Notes under the pieces: generated by a model | The model's database searches: none | What the model was told of the DNA's origin: nothing | The model's input: only the letters and a program-made list of their open reading frames with translations | Part shown: piece by piece, positions 44,366-52,269 of the stretch | How positions within the stretch are numbered: the first letter of the stretch is position 1 | How the letters are laid out: each line of letters starts with the position of its first letter | DNA from: Terrisporobacter glycolicus ATCC 14880 = DSM 1288 | GTDB taxonomy: Bacteria; Bacillota; Clostridia; Peptostreptococcales; Peptostreptococcaceae | Reading direction: 5' to 3' | Assembly: GCF_036812735.1 (NCBI RefSeq) | Contig: NZ_CP117523.1 | Location: 3,162,001 to 3,226,000 of the forward strand | DNA: 64,000 nt | Translations under genes and position numbers: made by a program

Positions 44366-46075
44366 TTATTTACTAAAAGTTTTTTCTACATAAGCTTTTA
44401 TTTCTTCTGAAGTTCCAAGAGATAATACTTCCTCTGAGAATTTTTTCATATCTTCAAAGCTTACTGAATTTATTAATTTTCTAGCAGGCAATATTGATAT
44501 TGGACTCATTGAAAATTCATCTAATCCAAATCCAAGTAATATTGGTATCATTAATTGGTCTCCTGCAGACTCTCCACACATTCCAGCCCATTTACCTTCT
44601 TTGTGTGCATTATCTATAACCATTTTTATAAGTCTAAGTACAGCCGGATTAAATTGGTTGTATAAGTAACTTATTTTTTGGTTCATTCTATCAACTGCAC
44701 AAGTATATTGTATTAAGTCATTAGTTCCTATTGAGAAGAAATCAACATGCTTAGCAAGTACATCTGATATTACTGCGGCAGATGGAACTTCTATCATCAT
44801 ACCAACTTCTACTTCTTCAGAATAAGCTATTTGCTCAGCTTTTAACTGTGATTTAACTGCTTCACAAACTTCTTTAGCTTGTAATAATTCTTCTAATGAT
44901 GATATCATTGGGAACATTATTCTTAATTTTCCATGTACACTTGCTCTATATAAAGCTCTAAGTTGAGTTACAAATATTTCTTTTCTATCTAGGCAAAGTC
45001 TAATGGCTCTATATCCTAAGAATGGATTCATTTCTTCGTCCATTGGAAGGTAGTCTAATTTCTTATCTCCACCTATATCTAATGTTCTTATAACTATTGG
45101 CTTTCCGTCCATTCCTTCAAGCACTGCTTTGTACGCATTGTATTGCTCTTCTTCACTTGGGAAATCACTTCTGTCCATATATAAGAATTCTGTTCTATAA
45201 AGTCCTACACCTTCAGCATCATTTTTTATAAGACCTTCTACGTCACCTGGAGTACCTATGTTACCTGCAAGTTCCACATGTCTTCCATCAGTAGTTATTG
45301 AAGCCTTACCTTTTAATAATTCTAATGCTTTTTTGTATTCTTCAAAATCAGCTTTTAATTTTGTATATTCAGCTATAGTTTCTTCATCTGGATTTATTAT
45401 TACTTCACCAGTATCTCCATTAAATGCTACAAAATCACCATCTTTTATTTCTTTAGTAGCATCGCTTAAACCAACTATAGCAGCTATTTCTAAAGTTCTA
45501 GACATTATAGCAGTATGAGAAGTTCTTCCACCTATATCTGTTAAGAATCCTAAAACTTTTTTCTTATCCATTGTTGCTGTATCAGATGGTGTTAAATCAT
45601 GAGCAACTAATACTACTTCTTCAGCTAAGTCCGCTAAGTCTACAACTTTTACACCTAATATGTGTCTAAGAACTCTATTTGTTACGTCTTTTATATCAGC
45701 TGCTCTTTCTCTCATATATTCATTGTCCATAGATTCAAACATACCTACGAACATTTCTTTTATTTCATTTAATGCAAAGTCTGCATTAACTTTTTCATCA
45801 TTTATTTTACTAACAGCAGATTCAACTAATTCTGGATCTTCTAACACTAATAAATGTGCTTCAAATATTTCAGCTTCGTGCTCACCAAGTTCTGCTAAAG
45901 CCTTTTCCTTTACTTTTGTTAATTCCTCTTTTGAAACTTCAACAGCAGTTCTTAATTTCGCTACTTCTGATTCACAATCAGTTATTGATTTTCTTTCTAT
46001 TACTAACTGCGTATCTTCAACTACTAACGCTTTCCCCAAAACAATACCTGGAGATGCTCCTATACCCTTTAACAT
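44366..46075 (-). CDS. ptsI: PTS enzyme I (PtsI)
   Basis: General PTS phosphotransferase, 569 residues. Phosphohistidine lies near residue 189 in GGRTSHTAIMSR. The PEP-binding barrel has GVGLYRTEFLYMDR, LGYRAIRLCLDR, FFSIGTNDLIQYT and the catalytic CGESAGD block. AGGAGG precedes the ATG. Transfers phosphate from PEP to HPr, which then feeds the galactitol system here. Follows ptsH by 68 bp with a hairpin between them. Confidence 0.97.
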   Translation of the reverse strand: MLKGIGASPGIVLGKALVVEDTQLVIERKSITDCESEVAKLRTAVEVSKEELTKVKEKALAELGEHEAEIFEAHLLVLEDPELVESAVSKINDEKVNADFALNEIKEMFVGMFESMDNEYMRERAADIKDVTNRVLRHILGVKVVDLADLAEEVVLVAHDLTPSDTATMDKKKVLGFLTDIGGRTSHTAIMSRTLEIAAIVGLSDATKEIKDGDFVAFNGDTGEVIINPDEETIAEYTKLKADFEEYKKALELLKGKASITTDGRHVELAGNIGTPGDVEGLIKNDAEGVGLYRTEFLYMDRSDFPSEEEQYNAYKAVLEGMDGKPIVIRTLDIGGDKKLDYLPMDEEMNPFLGYRAIRLCLDRKEIFVTQLRALYRASVHGKLRIMFPMISSLEELLQAKEVCEAVKSQLKAEQIAYSEEVEVGMMIEVPSAAVISDVLAKHVDFFSIGTNDLIQYTCAVDRMNQKISYLYNQFNPAVLRLIKMVIDNAHKEGKWAGMCGESAGDQLMIPILLGFGLDEFSMSPISILPARKLINSVSFEDMKKFSEEVLSLGTSEEIKAYVEKTFSK

Positions 46076-46143: not shown

Positions 46144-46404
46144 TTATTCACCAAATCCAGACTCTACTAATTCAACTAATGCATTAACTGCTGCTTCTTC
46201 ATCTGCACCAGCTGCACATATAGTTACTTCTTCACCTTTTCCAAGGCCTAAACTCATTATTCCCATTATTGATTTAGCGTTTACTACTTTACCTTTGCAT
46301 TTTACTTCAACTGTTGAAGTAAATTCTGATGCTTTTTTTACAAACATACCAGCTGGTCTTGCATGTAAACCTGTTTCATTTTTGATTACTACTACCTTTT
46401 CCAT
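46144..46404 (-). CDS. ptsH: Phosphocarrier protein HPr (PtsH)
   Basis: An 86-residue HPr: H14 in GLHARPAGMF is the EI-phosphorylated residue (equivalent to His15), and S45 in NAKSIMGIMSL is the HPrK regulatory site (equivalent to Ser46). GGAGG lies seven bases before the ATG at 46404; the longer frame is discounted. Precedes ptsI. Confidence 0.97.
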   Translation of the reverse strand: MEKVVVIKNETGLHARPAGMFVKKASEFTSTVEVKCKGKVVNAKSIMGIMSLGLGKGEEVTICAAGADEEAAVNALVELVESGFGE

Positions 46405-46449
46405 TTTACAACCTCCAGGCAAATTAAAAAATTTAATTAAATAATTAGC

Positions 46450-47637
46450 TTATTTTTGTTTATTAAAATCATAAATAATCAAATTAGTGATTATTTTCGC
46501 TAATTTACTAGTTGAGTGATTGACAAGTAGCTTGTCGCCATTCATTTGTTTATTACAAATTTGGATGACTTTATTAAAATCATAAAGTTCAACCCTATTT
46601 ATATTATTTTCCTCAAGCTTTCTTTCATATATACTGTAAAAAATATCTTTGTAAGAAGAGTTTTTGTCAATATTTAAAACTTCTATAATTTTAGGTATAA
46701 CATTTTCCATTAGTGTTCTACGATTTATATCTTTTTTTATATTTAATAAATAGCATAAATCATTTATAGTGTCTTTACTCAAATTACATATTTTATTAAA
46801 ACAATAATCCTCATTATATTTACAGTCAAGATTGAAGAAATAATTAACACCATCATATCTTTTATAAGCTTTCATAGTATCTAGATATCCAAGCTTTATA
46901 TTCGACTCAATATGATCCTTATCTTTATTAAGAGAACCTCCCAAACATTGAGACGGCACTATAACTTTTAAATTCAAATCTTGATATCGGTTTATTATCA
47001 TTTTACCAAGAAAGTCATCCACTAATCTAATTACTACTATATCATCATATCCTTTTTGTGCCAACATATTAATTGGTATATTGTCTGAAAACATTCCATC
47101 TAGATAAAGTTTGTCATCTAGCTTGTCCAATTGAAATATTGGTAATGATGAGCTAGCTATTAAATAATCTATCAACCTTCCTTCTGGTATATCCTCTGTA
47201 TATAGAAGTTTTGGAAATATCTTTCCATCCCAATATGCTGTAGTTATACCAAAATCAATTTTAGATTTTCTAATTTTCTCTTCATCAATTTTTTCTTCTA
47301 GTAATTTTCTAAGTGGGCTTATATCTATTCCTTGATTTTTTCTAGCTTTATTCATTAGTTCAACCACATCGTGTAAGCTCTTTACCCTCATTTCAAGGTT
47401 TTTATATCTTTCATATGTGTCTTCATCTATATTCATAAAACTTTTATAATCATAATTTACCCAAATATCTTCCATGGCATCGAAATCTCCCTGAACAATA
47501 AGCGCTCCGTTTAATGCTCCTATGGAAGTTCCTGCTATACCAGTAAATTGCATTCCTAAATCTGTTAAGGCTCTATATGCACCTATTTGATAAGCGCCTT
47601 TTGTTCCCCCACCTTCTAATACAAGACCTTTTTTCAT
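46450..47637 (-). CDS. Patatin-like phospholipase
   Basis: A 395-residue patatin-family hydrolase. The oxyanion motif GGGTKGAYQ, nucleophile motif GTSIG and catalytic Asp in LDGMFSDNIP are visible, all in the N-terminal 210 residues; the C-terminal 180 residues are charged and not assigned. The ATG at 47637 follows TTAGGTG; the 21 extra codons of the longest frame are not needed. A 9-bp inverted repeat lies just upstream. Acts on lipids or acyl chains in the cytoplasm. Confidence 0.88.
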   Translation of the reverse strand: MKKGLVLEGGGTKGAYQIGAYRALTDLGMQFTGIAGTSIGALNGALIVQGDFDAMEDIWVNYDYKSFMNIDEDTYERYKNLEMRVKSLHDVVELMNKARKNQGIDISPLRKLLEEKIDEEKIRKSKIDFGITTAYWDGKIFPKLLYTEDIPEGRLIDYLIASSSLPIFQLDKLDDKLYLDGMFSDNIPINMLAQKGYDDIVVIRLVDDFLGKMIINRYQDLNLKVIVPSQCLGGSLNKDKDHIESNIKLGYLDTMKAYKRYDGVNYFFNLDCKYNEDYCFNKICNLSKDTINDLCYLLNIKKDINRRTLMENVIPKIIEVLNIDKNSSYKDIFYSIYERKLEENNINRVELYDFNKVIQICNKQMNGDKLLVNHSTSKLAKIITNLIIYDFNKQK

Positions 47638-47655
47638 TTTATCACCTAACTTTTC

Positions 47656-47689
47656 ATGGAGAATATATATAATATAATACATTCTCCAT
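47656..47689. promoter_or_regulatory. Inverted repeat upstream of the patatin gene
   Basis: ATGGAGAAT / ATTCTCCAT (47656-47664 / 47681-47689) with a 16-bp AT spacer, between the 114-residue gene and the patatin ribosome site. It could be a weak terminator, an operator or a translation-control hairpin. Confidence 0.35.
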
Positions 47690-47701
47690 ATTTTTTCCAT
47701 G

Positions 47702-48046
47702 TTATTTTATAGCCCCTTTAGTGTTTACAACTTTTACTGACTTTAAAAATAATTTCTTTTCAATCGGTTTTAGTGATAAGTTGTTCATTATATAATTTTC
47801 TTCATCAACAAGATAAATTTTTTTATATCCCGTTTTTAAAAAAGCCATACATACTGTTCTTATATCATCCTCATTTTCGCATTCGAAAAAAGATGGAGAA
47901 ACTACTAGTTTATACGATGATGATTTTTTATTTTTCATAGTTTGCTTATAAGTATTTAAAAAATTATTTGCTTCTCTTTTACTTATAAAGCCACTTACAT
48001 CAATATAAACTTTCTTTTCTTCTTCATTTATATTTATATCTATCAC
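47702..48046 (-). CDS. Hypothetical 114-residue protein
   Basis: Small acidic protein with a strand-helix-strand layout (VYIDVSGFISKREANNFLNTYKQ; YKLVVSPSFFE; GYKKIYLVDEENYIMNN) faintly like a STAS domain. No membrane part. GAGGTGAG lies before the ATG. It sits between the methyltransferase and patatin genes on the same strand, with 58 bp to the former. Function unknown; conservation with the methyltransferase would be the thing to test. Confidence 0.65.
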   Translation of the reverse strand: MIDININEEEKKVYIDVSGFISKREANNFLNTYKQTMKNKKSSSYKLVVSPSFFECENEDDIRTVCMAFLKTGYKKIYLVDEENYIMNNLSLKPIEKKLFLKSVKVVNTKGAIK

Positions 48047-48104
48047 TTATCTCACCTCCAAATAATTCATTATTTTATTATATGAATTGTTTAGAGTAAA
48101 CTTG

Positions 48105-49859
48105 CTATAAGTTAAGTGATTTATTAATTAATTCGTTAACTTTATTTTGCAGGAAATGGCTTTCATTTTCAAGGTAATTAATTTCCTTATTAATGGCATT
48201 TTTTTTATCTTGCAACTTTTTATTATTTTTAATCGATTCAACTTCTTTTTTTATTGAAATTATTTTTTTACTAAGAGCCTCTATTTCACTATAATTTTCA
48301 TCTTTAAATATTTTTAATTTCATTACTTTATTTGGATAATAATCATATATTTTATTTCCCATACCTTTTCCTATCATTTTAAAATATCTATCATATGCCT
48401 CACTGTTTAATATTCCCACTATATACTCATAGGAAAATATGTTTTCATATTCTTCTTTAATATAAAATGAGTATACGTCTGCACTACTAAAATTATCATT
48501 ATCATCTATGGCAAACTTGTTATTAGAACTTTTGTATGGATACATAATTTTTTTTCTTTCAAACAAACTTTTTTCTCTTCCCCATTGAAGCTCATACCAT
48601 TTTCTAACTTTCTTAATACATTCCCTTCTGCCTTCCAATTTTTCCTTATAAGGTTTAAAACAATTTTCTTCTACATAAGAATAGCTTTGAATTTCATCAA
48701 TATCATTTGAATAAATTAATTTTTGATTACTTTGTTCTATTATATATTGATTTACATTTCTATTTTTTATCCATGACTTTAAAAGCTTTTTGTCAATATG
48801 TTCTATTCTTTCATCTTCAATATTTAATATAAAGGCTTTATCACAACCAGTAATTATACCTTGAAAACTTATACAAATATCTTCTAAATTATATTTGCTT
48901 TTTTGAACTATTTTATCATAAAGTATTTTATCTTCATAATTAAGTATTATCCAATTATTCCTTAAATCCACTTGATTAATACTTATTTTTTCACATTTTT
49001 CACTATTTAATAATATTTTTAAGTCTTTTATATTTTCAACATTTGTATTATCTCTTATTTTGTATGTAGCTAATATATTATAATTGGTTTTTTTCTCCAA
49101 AATTGCTATAAGAGGTGCTATTCCTAAGTTTTTAAATATATTAACATTTTTTAAATCTATAATCTTTTTTATGTCACAATTACTCATAAGATAGTCTCTA
49201 AGAAGTTTACCAGATGGGCTTTCTAAAAAGTATCTCGGTGTAATAAGCCCTATTTTACCTTCATCACTTATTAGATCTAAAGCCTTTTTATAAAAACAAA
49301 AATATATATCAGCTTTATCTTTATAAACATCTTTATATTCACTTAATAAAAATTTTTTATATTCCTTATCTAGCATCTTATGTCCAATATATGGTGGATT
49401 TCCTATAATGTAATCAAATTTCATATTATAATTCTTTTTTAGAGCATCTCCACAATTTATGTTGTTTATTGTTGATTGATTTTCTTCATTGTAATTATAT
49501 GATTTCTTTTTATTTAATGTTTCTTTTAAAATATTTATGGCATCTTTATCTATATCTACTCCATAAATACATTTATTTATAATATGGTCGCTTACATTAT
49601 TGATATAGTTTCCACCGTACGCTTCATTTATTTCATCTATGTTATTTTTTATTAATTTATATATCATATTATATGCTTCTATTAAAAAGTTCCCACATCC
49701 ACAAGATAAATCTAAAATCTTAGGCTCTGGATTTTTAATTATATTATGGTTTTTAAATACTTCTTGTAATATATAGTTAACAATTATTTTGGGTGTATAA
49801 TAAATACCCTTAACTTTTTTGTCATATAAAGACAAACTTTCTTCATATGACTTTGCCAT
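48105..49859 (-). CDS. camA: CamA-like orphan adenine-N6 DNA methyltransferase (type IIG form)
   Basis: A 584-residue Eco57I/TaqI-type methyltransferase. Motif X region GIYYTPKIIVNYI, motif I ILDLSCGCGNF (48-58), catalytic motif IV NPPYIG (153-158), then DKADIYFCFYKKALDL and ITPRYFLESPSG; from about 290 on a TaqI-like target-recognition part with SFQGIITGCDKAFIL, KWYELQWGREKSLFERKKIMYPYKS and FSSADVYSFYIKEEY. No endonuclease domain or restriction partner is visible. Length, motif order and C-terminal blocks match what I remember of C. difficile CamA (CAAAAA methylation, needed for normal sporulation). The adjoining patatin and ptsHI genes also match that locus in memory. Recognition site here is untested. 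Confidence 0.78.
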   Translation of the reverse strand: MAKSYEESLSLYDKKVKGIYYTPKIIVNYILQEVFKNHNIIKNPEPKILDLSCGCGNFLIEAYNMIYKLIKNNIDEINEAYGGNYINNVSDHIINKCIYGVDIDKDAINILKETLNKKKSYNYNEENQSTINNINCGDALKKNYNMKFDYIIGNPPYIGHKMLDKEYKKFLLSEYKDVYKDKADIYFCFYKKALDLISDEGKIGLITPRYFLESPSGKLLRDYLMSNCDIKKIIDLKNVNIFKNLGIAPLIAILEKKTNYNILATYKIRDNTNVENIKDLKILLNSEKCEKISINQVDLRNNWIILNYEDKILYDKIVQKSKYNLEDICISFQGIITGCDKAFILNIEDERIEHIDKKLLKSWIKNRNVNQYIIEQSNQKLIYSNDIDEIQSYSYVEENCFKPYKEKLEGRRECIKKVRKWYELQWGREKSLFERKKIMYPYKSSNNKFAIDDNDNFSSADVYSFYIKEEYENIFSYEYIVGILNSEAYDRYFKMIGKGMGNKIYDYYPNKVMKLKIFKDENYSEIEALSKKIISIKKEVESIKNNKKLQDKKNAINKEINYLENESHFLQNKVNELINKSLNL

Positions 49860-50001: not shown

Positions 50002-50823
50002 TTATCTCAATACTCTTCTTCCATTAACGAAAACTTTTGAATAATAATCGCTATCTAATTGCGAAATTACTACTTTCCCCTGACTAGAAGATGCATGTAT
50101 AAATTGATTATTTCCCAAATAAATTCCTGCATGAGAAATAACATTATCCATAGCTCCTACAGTATCAAAAAATACTAAGTCCCCAGGTTGTAAATCTTTT
50201 TTGTTAATATATGTTCCATATACTCCCTGCTCTTTTGATGAACGCGGTAAAGATATTTTTGCTACGTTTTTGTATACATACCAAGTGAATCCAGAACAAT
50301 CAAAAGTATTATGACCTTCATCTGCCCAAACATACTTTTTACCAAGTAAAGTTTTAGCATATTCAACTATCTTCTCTGAATTTACTGAAATTATTATTTC
50401 ATTAATATCTGATATTTTATTACTTAAATAACTACTTGCCACATATCCTTCTTTTGCATTATATTTTATTTTTGACCATCCTTCTGATGTTGATATTACT
50501 TCTACTTCACTTCCCTTGAATATTGTTCCTATAATAGAAGATTTTGTTGAAGACCCACTTCTAAAATTTAATACACTTACATTTACATACTTTTTAACCT
50601 TTTCTACTACTTGTACTGTTTTGTCACTTAAATACTTGCTCGATACAAATCCAAGAACACCTTTACATCTAACTAAAGTCCATCCATCTGACTGTGGCAC
50701 TACTTCCACCTGAGTATTTTTATGAAGGGATTGTATTATTTCATAATTAGTTGAAGGACCTTTTCTAAAATTCAAATTCTCCACATTAACTATTTTCATT
50801 TTATTATTTATACTTAGACTCAT
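50002..50823 (-). CDS. NlpC/P60 endopeptidase with two SH3b domains, no signal peptide
   Basis: A 273-residue peptidoglycan hydrolase: SH3b domains at about 9-66 and 78-135, then NlpC/P60 (150-273) with C176 (FDCSGF), H231 (SHAGIYLG) and H243. It is very similar to the 50992-52269 product but starts directly with SH3b sequence. No signal peptide or upstream hydrophobic frame exists, and the ATG at 50823 lacks a good ribosome site. Either the 5' end was lost in duplication, or the protein is used inside a mother cell or released by lysis. Active-site residues are intact. Confidence 0.82.
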   Translation of the reverse strand: MSLSINNKMKIVNVENLNFRKGPSTNYEIIQSLHKNTQVEVVPQSDGWTLVRCKGVLGFVSSKYLSDKTVQVVEKVKKYVNVSVLNFRSGSSTKSSIIGTIFKGSEVEVISTSEGWSKIKYNAKEGYVASSYLSNKISDINEIIISVNSEKIVEYAKTLLGKKYVWADEGHNTFDCSGFTWYVYKNVAKISLPRSSKEQGVYGTYINKKDLQPGDLVFFDTVGAMDNVISHAGIYLGNNQFIHASSSQGKVVISQLDSDYYSKVFVNGRRVLR

Positions 50824-50956
50824 GTTTTATCTTATAATTTAATATTATAAGATTATCAACTCCTATTAATAATTTTAATAGAAAAAACTCTATTATTGTA
50901 AATATATGCATACTTATAATAATTTGTGTTTGTTTAAATATAATAAAAAATTAATT

Positions 50957-50988
50957 AAAAAACACCTCTAAAAATAGAGGTGTTTTTT
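50957..50988 (-). terminator. Terminator after the secreted NlpC/P60 gene
   Basis: A 13-bp perfect stem AAAAAACACCTCT / AGAGGTGTTTTTT (50957-50969 / 50976-50988). Confidence 0.88.
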
Positions 50989-50991
50989 AAT

Positions 50992-52269
50992 TTATAATAC
51001 TCTCCTAGCATTTACAAATGCTCCGTTATAATAAGAACTCATTTGAGAAATTACAACTTTTCCTTTACTTGATGACGCATGTATAAATTCATTATTTCCT
51101 AAATATATTCCAACATGGCTAACATTACCATTATTTGATCCACTTGTATCAAAAAATATTAAGTCTCCAGCTTTTAAATTACTTTTACTTACATAAGTTC
51201 CATATTTGCTTTGATCCTTTGAAACTCTTGGTAAACTTATATTTGATGCATTTTTAAATACATAGTAAGTAAACCCTGAACAGTCAAAGCTACTAGGTCC
51301 TTGAGCTCCCCATACATAAGGCTTTCCAAGTAAAGTTTTAGCTACTGATATAACTTTACTTGCTGATGAAGATGTTGAATTAGAATCATTAGGAGCATTG
51401 CTACTTAAATATTCACTTGATACATATCCTGTTTTATTATTATATTTTATTTTTGACCATCCATTTGATGCTGATATTACTCCTATCTTAGTTCCACTTG
51501 ATAATGTTCCTATTACTGAATAACTTGTTGATGGTCCACTTCTAACATTTAATGTTGAAGTATTTACATATTTTGTTGTTGTATTACTTGATTCAGGAGC
51601 ACTACTACTCAAATACTGACTTGATACATATCCTGTTTTACCATCATATTTTATTTTTGACCATCCATTTGATGTTGATATTACTCCTATCTTAGTTCCA
51701 CTTGATAATGTTCCTATTACTGAGTAACTTTTTGATGGTCCACTTCTAACATTTAATGTCGAGGTATTTACATATTTTGTTGTTGTATTGCTTGATTCAG
51801 GAGTACTACTACTTAAGTATTTACTTGATACATATCCTGTCTTACCATCATATTTTATTTTTGACCATCCATTTGATGTTGATATTACTTCTACCTTAGT
51901 ACCACTTGATAATTTTCCTATTACTGAGTAACTTGTTGATGGTCCACTTCTAAAGTTCAGTGATGTAGTATTTACGTATTTTGTTGTACTCGACGAATAT
52001 TCTCCAACGTATTCCCCATAAACATATCCTATTTTATTAGAATACTTAACTTTTATCCAGGAACCGCTTTCACCTAAATATTCTACTTTATCACCTTTAT
52101 TAAACTTTCCAATTGATGAATAACTTGTTGATGGCCCACTTCTAAAGTTTACTGCATCTGCTGTTATAACTCTATTCTCAGTATCTGCAAATGCTGTAGT
52201 CATTCCTGTATGTAACATAATTGATGATGCTACTAATCCTGTTAAAACGTATTTTTTTTCAATACTCAT
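50992..52269 (-). CDS. Secreted NlpC/P60 endopeptidase with four SH3b domains
   Basis: A 425-residue cell-wall hydrolase. A signal peptide (1-28, ending TTAFA) is followed by four SH3b domains (about 32-88, 95-153, 163-221 and 231-289), a short Ser/Asn linker, then NlpC/P60 (302-425) with C330, H385 and H397. SH3b units 2-4 are nearly identical and are encoded by 204-bp DNA repeats, so the number may vary between strains. It should cleave D-gamma-glutamyl-diaminopimelate bonds in the wall. Its terminator and neighbour make it a tandem paralogue of the 50002-50823 gene. Confidence 0.92.
   Translation of the reverse strand: MSIEKKYVLTGLVASSIMLHTGMTTAFADTENRVITADAVNFRSGPSTSYSSIGKFNKGDKVEYLGESGSWIKVKYSNKIGYVYGEYVGEYSSSTTKYVNTTSLNFRSGPSTSYSVIGKLSSGTKVEVISTSNGWSKIKYDGKTGYVSSKYLSSSTPESSNTTTKYVNTSTLNVRSGPSKSYSVIGTLSSGTKIGVISTSNGWSKIKYDGKTGYVSSQYLSSSAPESSNTTTKYVNTSTLNVRSGPSTSYSVIGTLSSGTKIGVISASNGWSKIKYNNKTGYVSSEYLSSNAPNDSNSTSSSASKVISVAKTLLGKPYVWGAQGPSSFDCSGFTYYVFKNASNISLPRVSKDQSKYGTYVSKSNLKAGDLIFFDTSGSNNGNVSHVGIYLGNNEFIHASSSKGKVVISQMSSYYNGAFVNARRVL
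51379..51987. repeat. Three tandem 204-bp repeats coding SH3b domains
   Basis: Identical words such as GACCATCCATTTGATG recur at 51455, 51659 and 51863, a strict 204-bp (68-codon) period. Each unit encodes KYVNT..LN(V/F)RSGPS..YSVIG then SNGWSKIKY..KTGYVSS. High similarity implies recent amplification or gene conversion. Confidence 0.85.

Follow-up and report, generated by a model that had tools for sequence, protein, structure and literature searches.

The closest described system is CamA of Clostridioides difficile, a DNA adenine methyltransferase whose base-contact residues are given in the CamA-DNA structure paper (PMC8187626) and whose effect on sporulation is traced in PMC13395437. Three CAAAAA sites lie upstream of spoIIE in C. 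difficile, and only the promoter-proximal one, Me3, near the -35 element, mediates the sporulation effect of CamA (PMC13395437). The Me3 region overlaps the -35 element and a putative Spo0A box, and its mutation phenocopies camA deletion and leaves Spo0A binding unchanged; mutation of Me1 is without effect on C. difficile sporulation, and loss of camA leaves transcription of the spoIIAA operon unchanged (PMC13395437). The abstracts of PMC13395437 and PMC8187626 present CamA as C. difficile-specific or as rarely found in other species. A near-identical motif with a purine at position 7, CAAAAAR, is found in published methylomes (C. pasteurianum, C. ljungdahlii, C. autoethanogenum, E. limosum and A. 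woodii), one of the methyltransferases being Awo_c14460 of A. woodii (PMC6700114). The similarity of the CamA site to those methylomes has already been remarked (PMC10745947), and the C. cadaveris announcement PMC8928765 makes a like remark for CRAAAAR. A literature search found no paper on Terrisporobacter methylation, and none on CamA across the family Peptostreptococcaceae was found among the matches listed. The present analysis concerns a camA-like gene in a stretch of 64,000 nucleotides of the Terrisporobacter glycolicus ATCC 14880 = DSM 1288 genome (contig NZ_CP117523.1, positions 3,162,001 to 3,226,000), referred to below as the window.

The 584-amino-acid protein encoded by this gene is, judged by alignment, an ortholog of C. 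difficile CamA, and we put the probability at roughly 0.8 that it is an orphan CAAAAA(R) methylase that has been inherited vertically and is kept for other promoters, with any effect on sporulation not passing through Me3. Among solved structures searched with phmmer, the best relative is C. difficile CamA (PDB 7lni, 8cxz; 637.8 bits, E = 1.6e-190, query residues 2-551), followed by M.BseCI (PDB 7qw5) at 105.3 bits. A comparison with CamA had been set beforehand as a check on the preliminary description, which had called the protein a CamA-like orphan methyltransferase; the top match is CamA and not a type IIG enzyme, and with no nuclease in the neighbours tested that assignment stands. Identity to CamA of the reference genome (G006) amounts to 292 of 508 aligned residues (57.5%) and to 139 of 220 (63%) in the target recognition domain (TRD). 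The same description had supposed a diverged recognition half and hence perhaps another site; with the TRD better conserved than the whole protein (63% versus 57%) and 12 of its 13 base contacts kept, an altered target through a diverged TRD is rejected.

Fourteen of the 15 base-contact residues are kept, the sole change being Ser514 to Gly (Gly501 here), and the chance of such conservation in a random set of 15 positions is low (hypergeometric P = 0.003). The 13 residues that read bases C1 to A4 plus the orphan T5 are all identical (H171, K172, Q346, I349, R425, Q438, W439, R441, Y455, K456, S472, A473 and Y521); among the contacts to the rearranged A5:T6 pair Ile517 is kept, and Gly replaces Ser514 at a position that varies between Ser, Gly and Asn among family orthologs. 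The catalytic NPPY motif and the adenine cage are also kept (Y20, N154, P155, Y157 and F242, equivalent to CamA Tyr30, Asn165, Pro166, Tyr168 and Phe253). M.BseCI, whose site is ATCGAT, is related to the Terrisporobacter protein over ~460 residues yet differs at many of the contact positions in the phmmer alignment, judged by eye, and these positions are therefore not mere fold residues. Because the TRD is not especially diverged and 14 of 15 contacts are kept, CAAAAA or CAAAAAR is the expected site. The enzyme, which is predicted to be active, would convert the final adenine of CAAAAA, or perhaps of CAAAAAR, to N6-methyladenine throughout the chromosome, and methylation would tune promoters whose regulators overlap CAAAAA sites. 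The expectation that a poly-A-type site would be very frequent held for the count, 118 CAAAAA in the 64-kb window, which is nevertheless slightly under the 138 expected by chance.

In the C. difficile genome G006, CAAAAA sites lie 106, 86 and 60 nt ahead of the spoIIE start codon, and Me3 is equated here with the site at 60 nt, our own assignment from the description in PMC13395437. Family promoters were anchored on GACA, a spacing of 20-22 nt and the -10 element, which was possible at 50 of 53 loci (G024, G025 and G028 were dropped for lack of a usable anchor or start); two promoters, that of G068 at a contig edge and that of G162, where the match begins inside the gene, were not taken into the promoter comparison. 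The Me3 hexamer is CAAAAA in 37 of the 50 anchored promoters and in 15 of 18 genera. It reads CAAAAT in all five readable Terrisporobacter promoters, including that of T. glycolicus, where GACAAAAT begins at G000:C1:184081, beyond the window, 66 nt ahead of the spoIIE start codon. Four genomes of the Intestinibacter group (g6) read CAAATT (three) or CAAAAT (one), and genus g15 reads CAAAAT in four of four. All 13 exceptions carry camA, and they need two state changes on the SpoIIE tree, where Terrisporobacter and Intestinibacter are sisters (support 94). G025 (group g9, 84% complete, unanchored) has GACAAAAT, with the CAAAAT hexamer, farther upstream than the promoter scan reached; counting it in would give 37 of 51 and probably a third loss. 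The G024 promoter has no such element.

Since the base at the Me3 position is T, the Terrisporobacter spoIIE -35 element is not methylatable there, and with CAAAAT as the functional spoIIE site the C. difficile sporulation route is unlikely in this genus. Of the sporulation role implied by the preliminary description, the CamA identity thus survives and the route known from C. difficile probably does not. The loss of the switch in a lineage that kept camA suggests that CamA is retained for other target promoters and, in turn, that any sporulation effect would bypass Me3. We infer that the common ancestor of most family members already had the spoIIE switch, which was lost in the lineage of Terrisporobacter and Intestinibacter and a second time in g15. 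The wider proposition, that CamA and the spoIIE -35 switch are ancestral to Peptostreptococcaceae and that the site was dismantled at least twice (Terrisporobacter with Intestinibacter; g15) while the methyltransferase stayed, stands at about even odds.

In other families of the order the same promoter reads CAAAAA in four of 34 cases and CAAATC, CAAATA or CAAATG in the other 30, in a set with a looser anchor in which all chosen promoters have GACA and CAAA and from which five of 39 loci were dropped (G104, G141, G168, G099 and G094). Because CAAAT followed by C, A or G prevails there, the CAAA core is general, and the family is marked by AA at positions 5-6. In the 200 nt upstream of spoIIE there are 42 CAAAAA sites, in 19 of 20 genomes, versus eight sites in five of 20 upstream of spoIIAA, the sigF-operon control, against a mostly coding background of 0.31 per 200 nt. 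For the control, one or two genomes were taken from each genus, 20 of the 55 that have spoIIAA; the 200 nt counted run up to the start of the spoIIAA match, and those for spoIIE stop 60 nt short of the match start. Fisher tests (35/48 versus 4/34; camA with spoIIE) take no account of phylogeny, and their values are not read as probabilities.

Positions 46450-49859 of the window comprise three open reading frames (ORFs), all on the minus strand, and the features of the locus are as follows.

48105..49859, minus strand: camA ortholog, an orphan gamma-class N6-adenine DNA methyltransferase of 584 amino acids (aa), with NPPY at residues 154-157
47702..48046, minus strand: small ORF of 114 aa between camA and the patatin gene
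46450..47700, minus strand: patatin-like phospholipase (patatin domain, 109.1 bits)
46144..46422, minus strand: ptsH (HPr)
44366..46075, minus strand: ptsI (phosphotransferase system enzyme I)
50002..52269, minus strand: two tandem SH3/NlpC-P60 genes upstream of camA, without a nuclease domain

The genes thus run camA, small ORF, patatin, ptsH, ptsI on one strand. The order camA, patatin, ptsH, ptsI is shared by the window and all eight genomes of the Clostridioides group (g4), which bears out the likeness to the C. difficile locus claimed in the preliminary description. The Terrisporobacter and C. difficile enzymes are also alike in full-length homology, gamma-class motif order, aromatic cage residues, 14 of 15 base contacts and the lack of any nuclease neighbour found; Terrisporobacter differs in having Gly for Ser514, 57.5% identity, a longer C-terminal tail, an extra 114-aa ORF ahead of the patatin gene and a host without the spoIIE Me3 site. 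The 114-aa ORF, which has no match in Pfam or NCBIfam, accompanies roughly half of the family orthologs of camA, a relative lying 3' of camA at 31 of 59 ortholog loci and at none of the eight in the Clostridioides group. The patatin-like ORF probably starts at an internal Met (MKKGLVLEGGG..., by our own reading). At least one SH3/NlpC-P60-related ORF lies 5' of camA at four Terrisporobacter-group and four Intestinibacter-group loci, at all of which both queries matched one ORF best. The 584-aa protein has a single match in its own genome (4.06 Mb), and CamA is 92% and 91% identical in the group-g1 genomes that match Terrisporobacter mayombei and T. petrolearius. The ratio of nonsynonymous to synonymous substitution rates (dN/dS) for camA is 0.17-0.19 in four pairwise comparisons within Terrisporobacter, by which measure the gene is under purifying selection there and its decay is ruled out; at the protein level CamA evolves faster than ptsI and patatin.

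Matches to camA at E <= 1e-30 are present in 60 of 71 family genomes. One of them, G036, was dropped as a non-ortholog (29% identity, 7 of 15 contacts, no synteny), which leaves orthologs in 59 of the 71 genomes and 19 of 23 genera, 51 of them outside the Clostridioides group. Contrary to the preliminary description, CamA by this count is not rare outside C. difficile and is present over most of the family. The 59 include one broken gene (G012) and three (G026, G028 and G068) that are cut short by contig ends in the loci taken. Among the 55 orthologs that cover all 15 base contacts, the residues are as in C. difficile at 15 positions in 20, at 14 in 16, at 13 in 14, at 12 in four and at 11 in one; the 47 of these outside the Clostridioides group keep 11-15. 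Positions 172, 346, 349, 425, 439, 441, 456, 472, 473 and 521 are invariant in all orthologs covering them. A patatin relative lies 3' of camA on the same strand at 44 of 59 loci and a ptsH relative at 49, and 55 orthologs have at least one of small ORF, patatin and ptsH there; only G001, G002, G026 and G028 have none of the three, and the last two of these loci are on short contigs.

An order-wide sample gave matches at E <= 1e-40 in 23 of 118 genomes, 14 within the family and nine outside it, and a scan of species genomes gave 93 stretches with relatives, of which at least 79 loci were taken on. Many of these relatives, in Clostridium and Tissierellia species, are ~40% identical and keep mostly 11-14 of 15 contacts without the locus, the Clostridium loci fetched having no patatin, ptsH or ptsI relative, unlike that of Terrisporobacter; G083, whose homolog is 34% identical and keeps 9 of 15 contacts, was scored CamA-negative. 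The occurrence of these relatives agrees with the CAAAAAR methylomes published for Clostridium and acetogen species. Given the shared locus, and given that the SpoIIE tree and the CamA tree alike pair Terrisporobacter with Intestinibacter, a horizontal origin is not favoured and camA was probably inherited vertically. That pairing has SH-like approximate likelihood ratio test (SH-aLRT) values of 94 and 81, respectively, in quick trees (52 rows for SpoIIE, without the short G022; 66 rows for CamA, without the partial or broken G012, G025, G026, G028 and G068) in which many deeper forks are open and which disagree in places, for example on g15.

Several homologs depart from the usual form. In G012 (Faecalimicrobium dakarense; L170/L083), counted above as an ortholog, camA is broken, with 20 stops in the match and split ORFs; the patatin-ptsHI genes lie alongside, the spoIIE Me3 site is present, and the camA frame of its congener G013 is open. 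In the Tepidibacter groups g22, g23 and g2 (L056-L058, L172 and L188-L191) the open frames of the CamA orthologs span 773-968 aa; as many as ~150 aa precede the methyltransferase, and there is often a C-terminal extension. Scans of two of them, L057 and L058, showed no nuclease domain. Another family of methyltransferases, with 25-30% identity to CamA (L246-L250 and L257-L259, in G083, G121, G130, G117, G080, G154, G171 and G120), shares a contact string that differs from that of CamA, E-K-Q-V-R-[QHT]-W-R-[QH]-R-S-A-G-L-Y, with a similar one in G036, and may read a related A-rich site.

The distribution of camA follows that of sporulation genes incompletely. The spoIIE gene is found in 54 family genomes (53 over the cut-off and G051, cut by a contig end), 52 of which carry camA, the exceptions being G018 and G019; 17 genomes have no spoIIE, and seven of these carry camA. 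In three g11 genomes (L184, L055 and L173) there is no SpoIIE or Spo0A match over the cut-offs, and camA is open with 14-15 of 15 contacts. Some lineages therefore keep CamA in the absence of these sporulation genes, and the g11 genes point to roles besides sporulation. One g11 genome, G033, matches Peptacetobacter hominis.

With regard to the enzyme itself, it is very improbable that the protein is retained for defence, as the methylating half of a type IIG or paired type II restriction system. Its Eco57I and TaqI_C domains (113.6 and 41.9 bits in Pfam) are typical of type IIG enzymes and PADLOC lists IIG models too, though weaker (129 bits), but the model that PADLOC scores highest is that of a type II methyltransferase with 577 positions (654.9 bits), an N-terminal nuclease would have no space because the first adenine-cage residue is already Tyr20, the Pfam scan of the protein gave no fused nuclease domain, and the gene order of the locus is shared between genera, which sets it apart from mobile restriction-modification systems. 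No nuclease was found in the ORFs scanned around camA, a search that left aside the topB, pepT, sortase and HAD ORFs and the rest of the genome. On the best match to CamA, the domain scan and the PADLOC result, a type IIG enzyme is rejected. A slight shift in specificity, by which the Terrisporobacter enzyme would require a purine after the hexamer, is less easily set aside, though we think it unlikely. Gly at the sole changed base contact, 514, is common to all 11 outgroup homologs aligned, that of C. ragsdalei included and several from genera with reported CAAAAAR, and a need for a purine at position 7 is therefore possible. However, residue 514 varies in the family without known effect (33 Ser, 22 Gly, 1 Asn and 3 gaps in 59 orthologs), its link to the seventh base is a correlation, Awo_c14460 is likened by published motif and not by alignment, and C. 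ljungdahlii is the only reported CAAAAAR species aligned, through another strain (L113) whose homolog is split before residue 514. This CamA-like homolog of Clostridium ljungdahlii ERI-2 lies in two reading frames, split within the recognition domain, and shows four contacts; the split may be a genuine frameshift or may stem from a sequencing error, and the frame is open in the near relative C. ragsdalei (L073).

At the promoter, it is conceivable, if doubtful, that CAAAAA at the spoIIE -35 element reflects a preference of the promoter or the Spo0A box and not CamA, which would make its loss in Terrisporobacter uninformative about CamA. In all 84 anchored promoters the hexamer starts with CAAA (its CA belongs to the anchor), positions 5-6 look constrained outside the family too, and G018 and G019 (both 88% complete) have CAAAAA at Me3 despite lacking camA; with the four outside-family promoters that also read CAAAAA, these two genomes imply that promoter or Spo0A constraint alone could hold the Me3 sequence. 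Against this stand the C. difficile Me3 mutant, with its camA-deletion phenotype and unchanged Spo0A binding (PMC13395437), and the CAAAAA sites upstream of spoIIE, which over the 20 genomes compared are ~5x as dense as those upstream of spoIIAA. The observations on G018, G019 and the four promoters also count against the main reading given above, as do several others: the contrast at Me3 between the family and its outside is essentially one phylogenetic event, one CAAAAA is left upstream of T. glycolicus spoIIE, at the Me1 position, targets other than Me3 could affect sporulation in Terrisporobacter, and the change of Ser514 to Gly could alter flank preference.

Intestinibacter is a gut genus. 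With 51 orthologs outside the Clostridioides group, Intestinibacter included, a CamA inhibitor may not be species-specific, and part of the published case for CamA as a drug target is that it is called specific to C. difficile (PMC13395437; PMC8187626). The effect of CamA in infection is described as largely independent of sporulation (PMC13395437). In lineages that keep CamA and have lost the spoIIE site, the role of CamA beyond sporulation can be approached directly and, if the reading proposed here is true, these natural Me3-less lineages would let its other functions be studied apart from sporulation.

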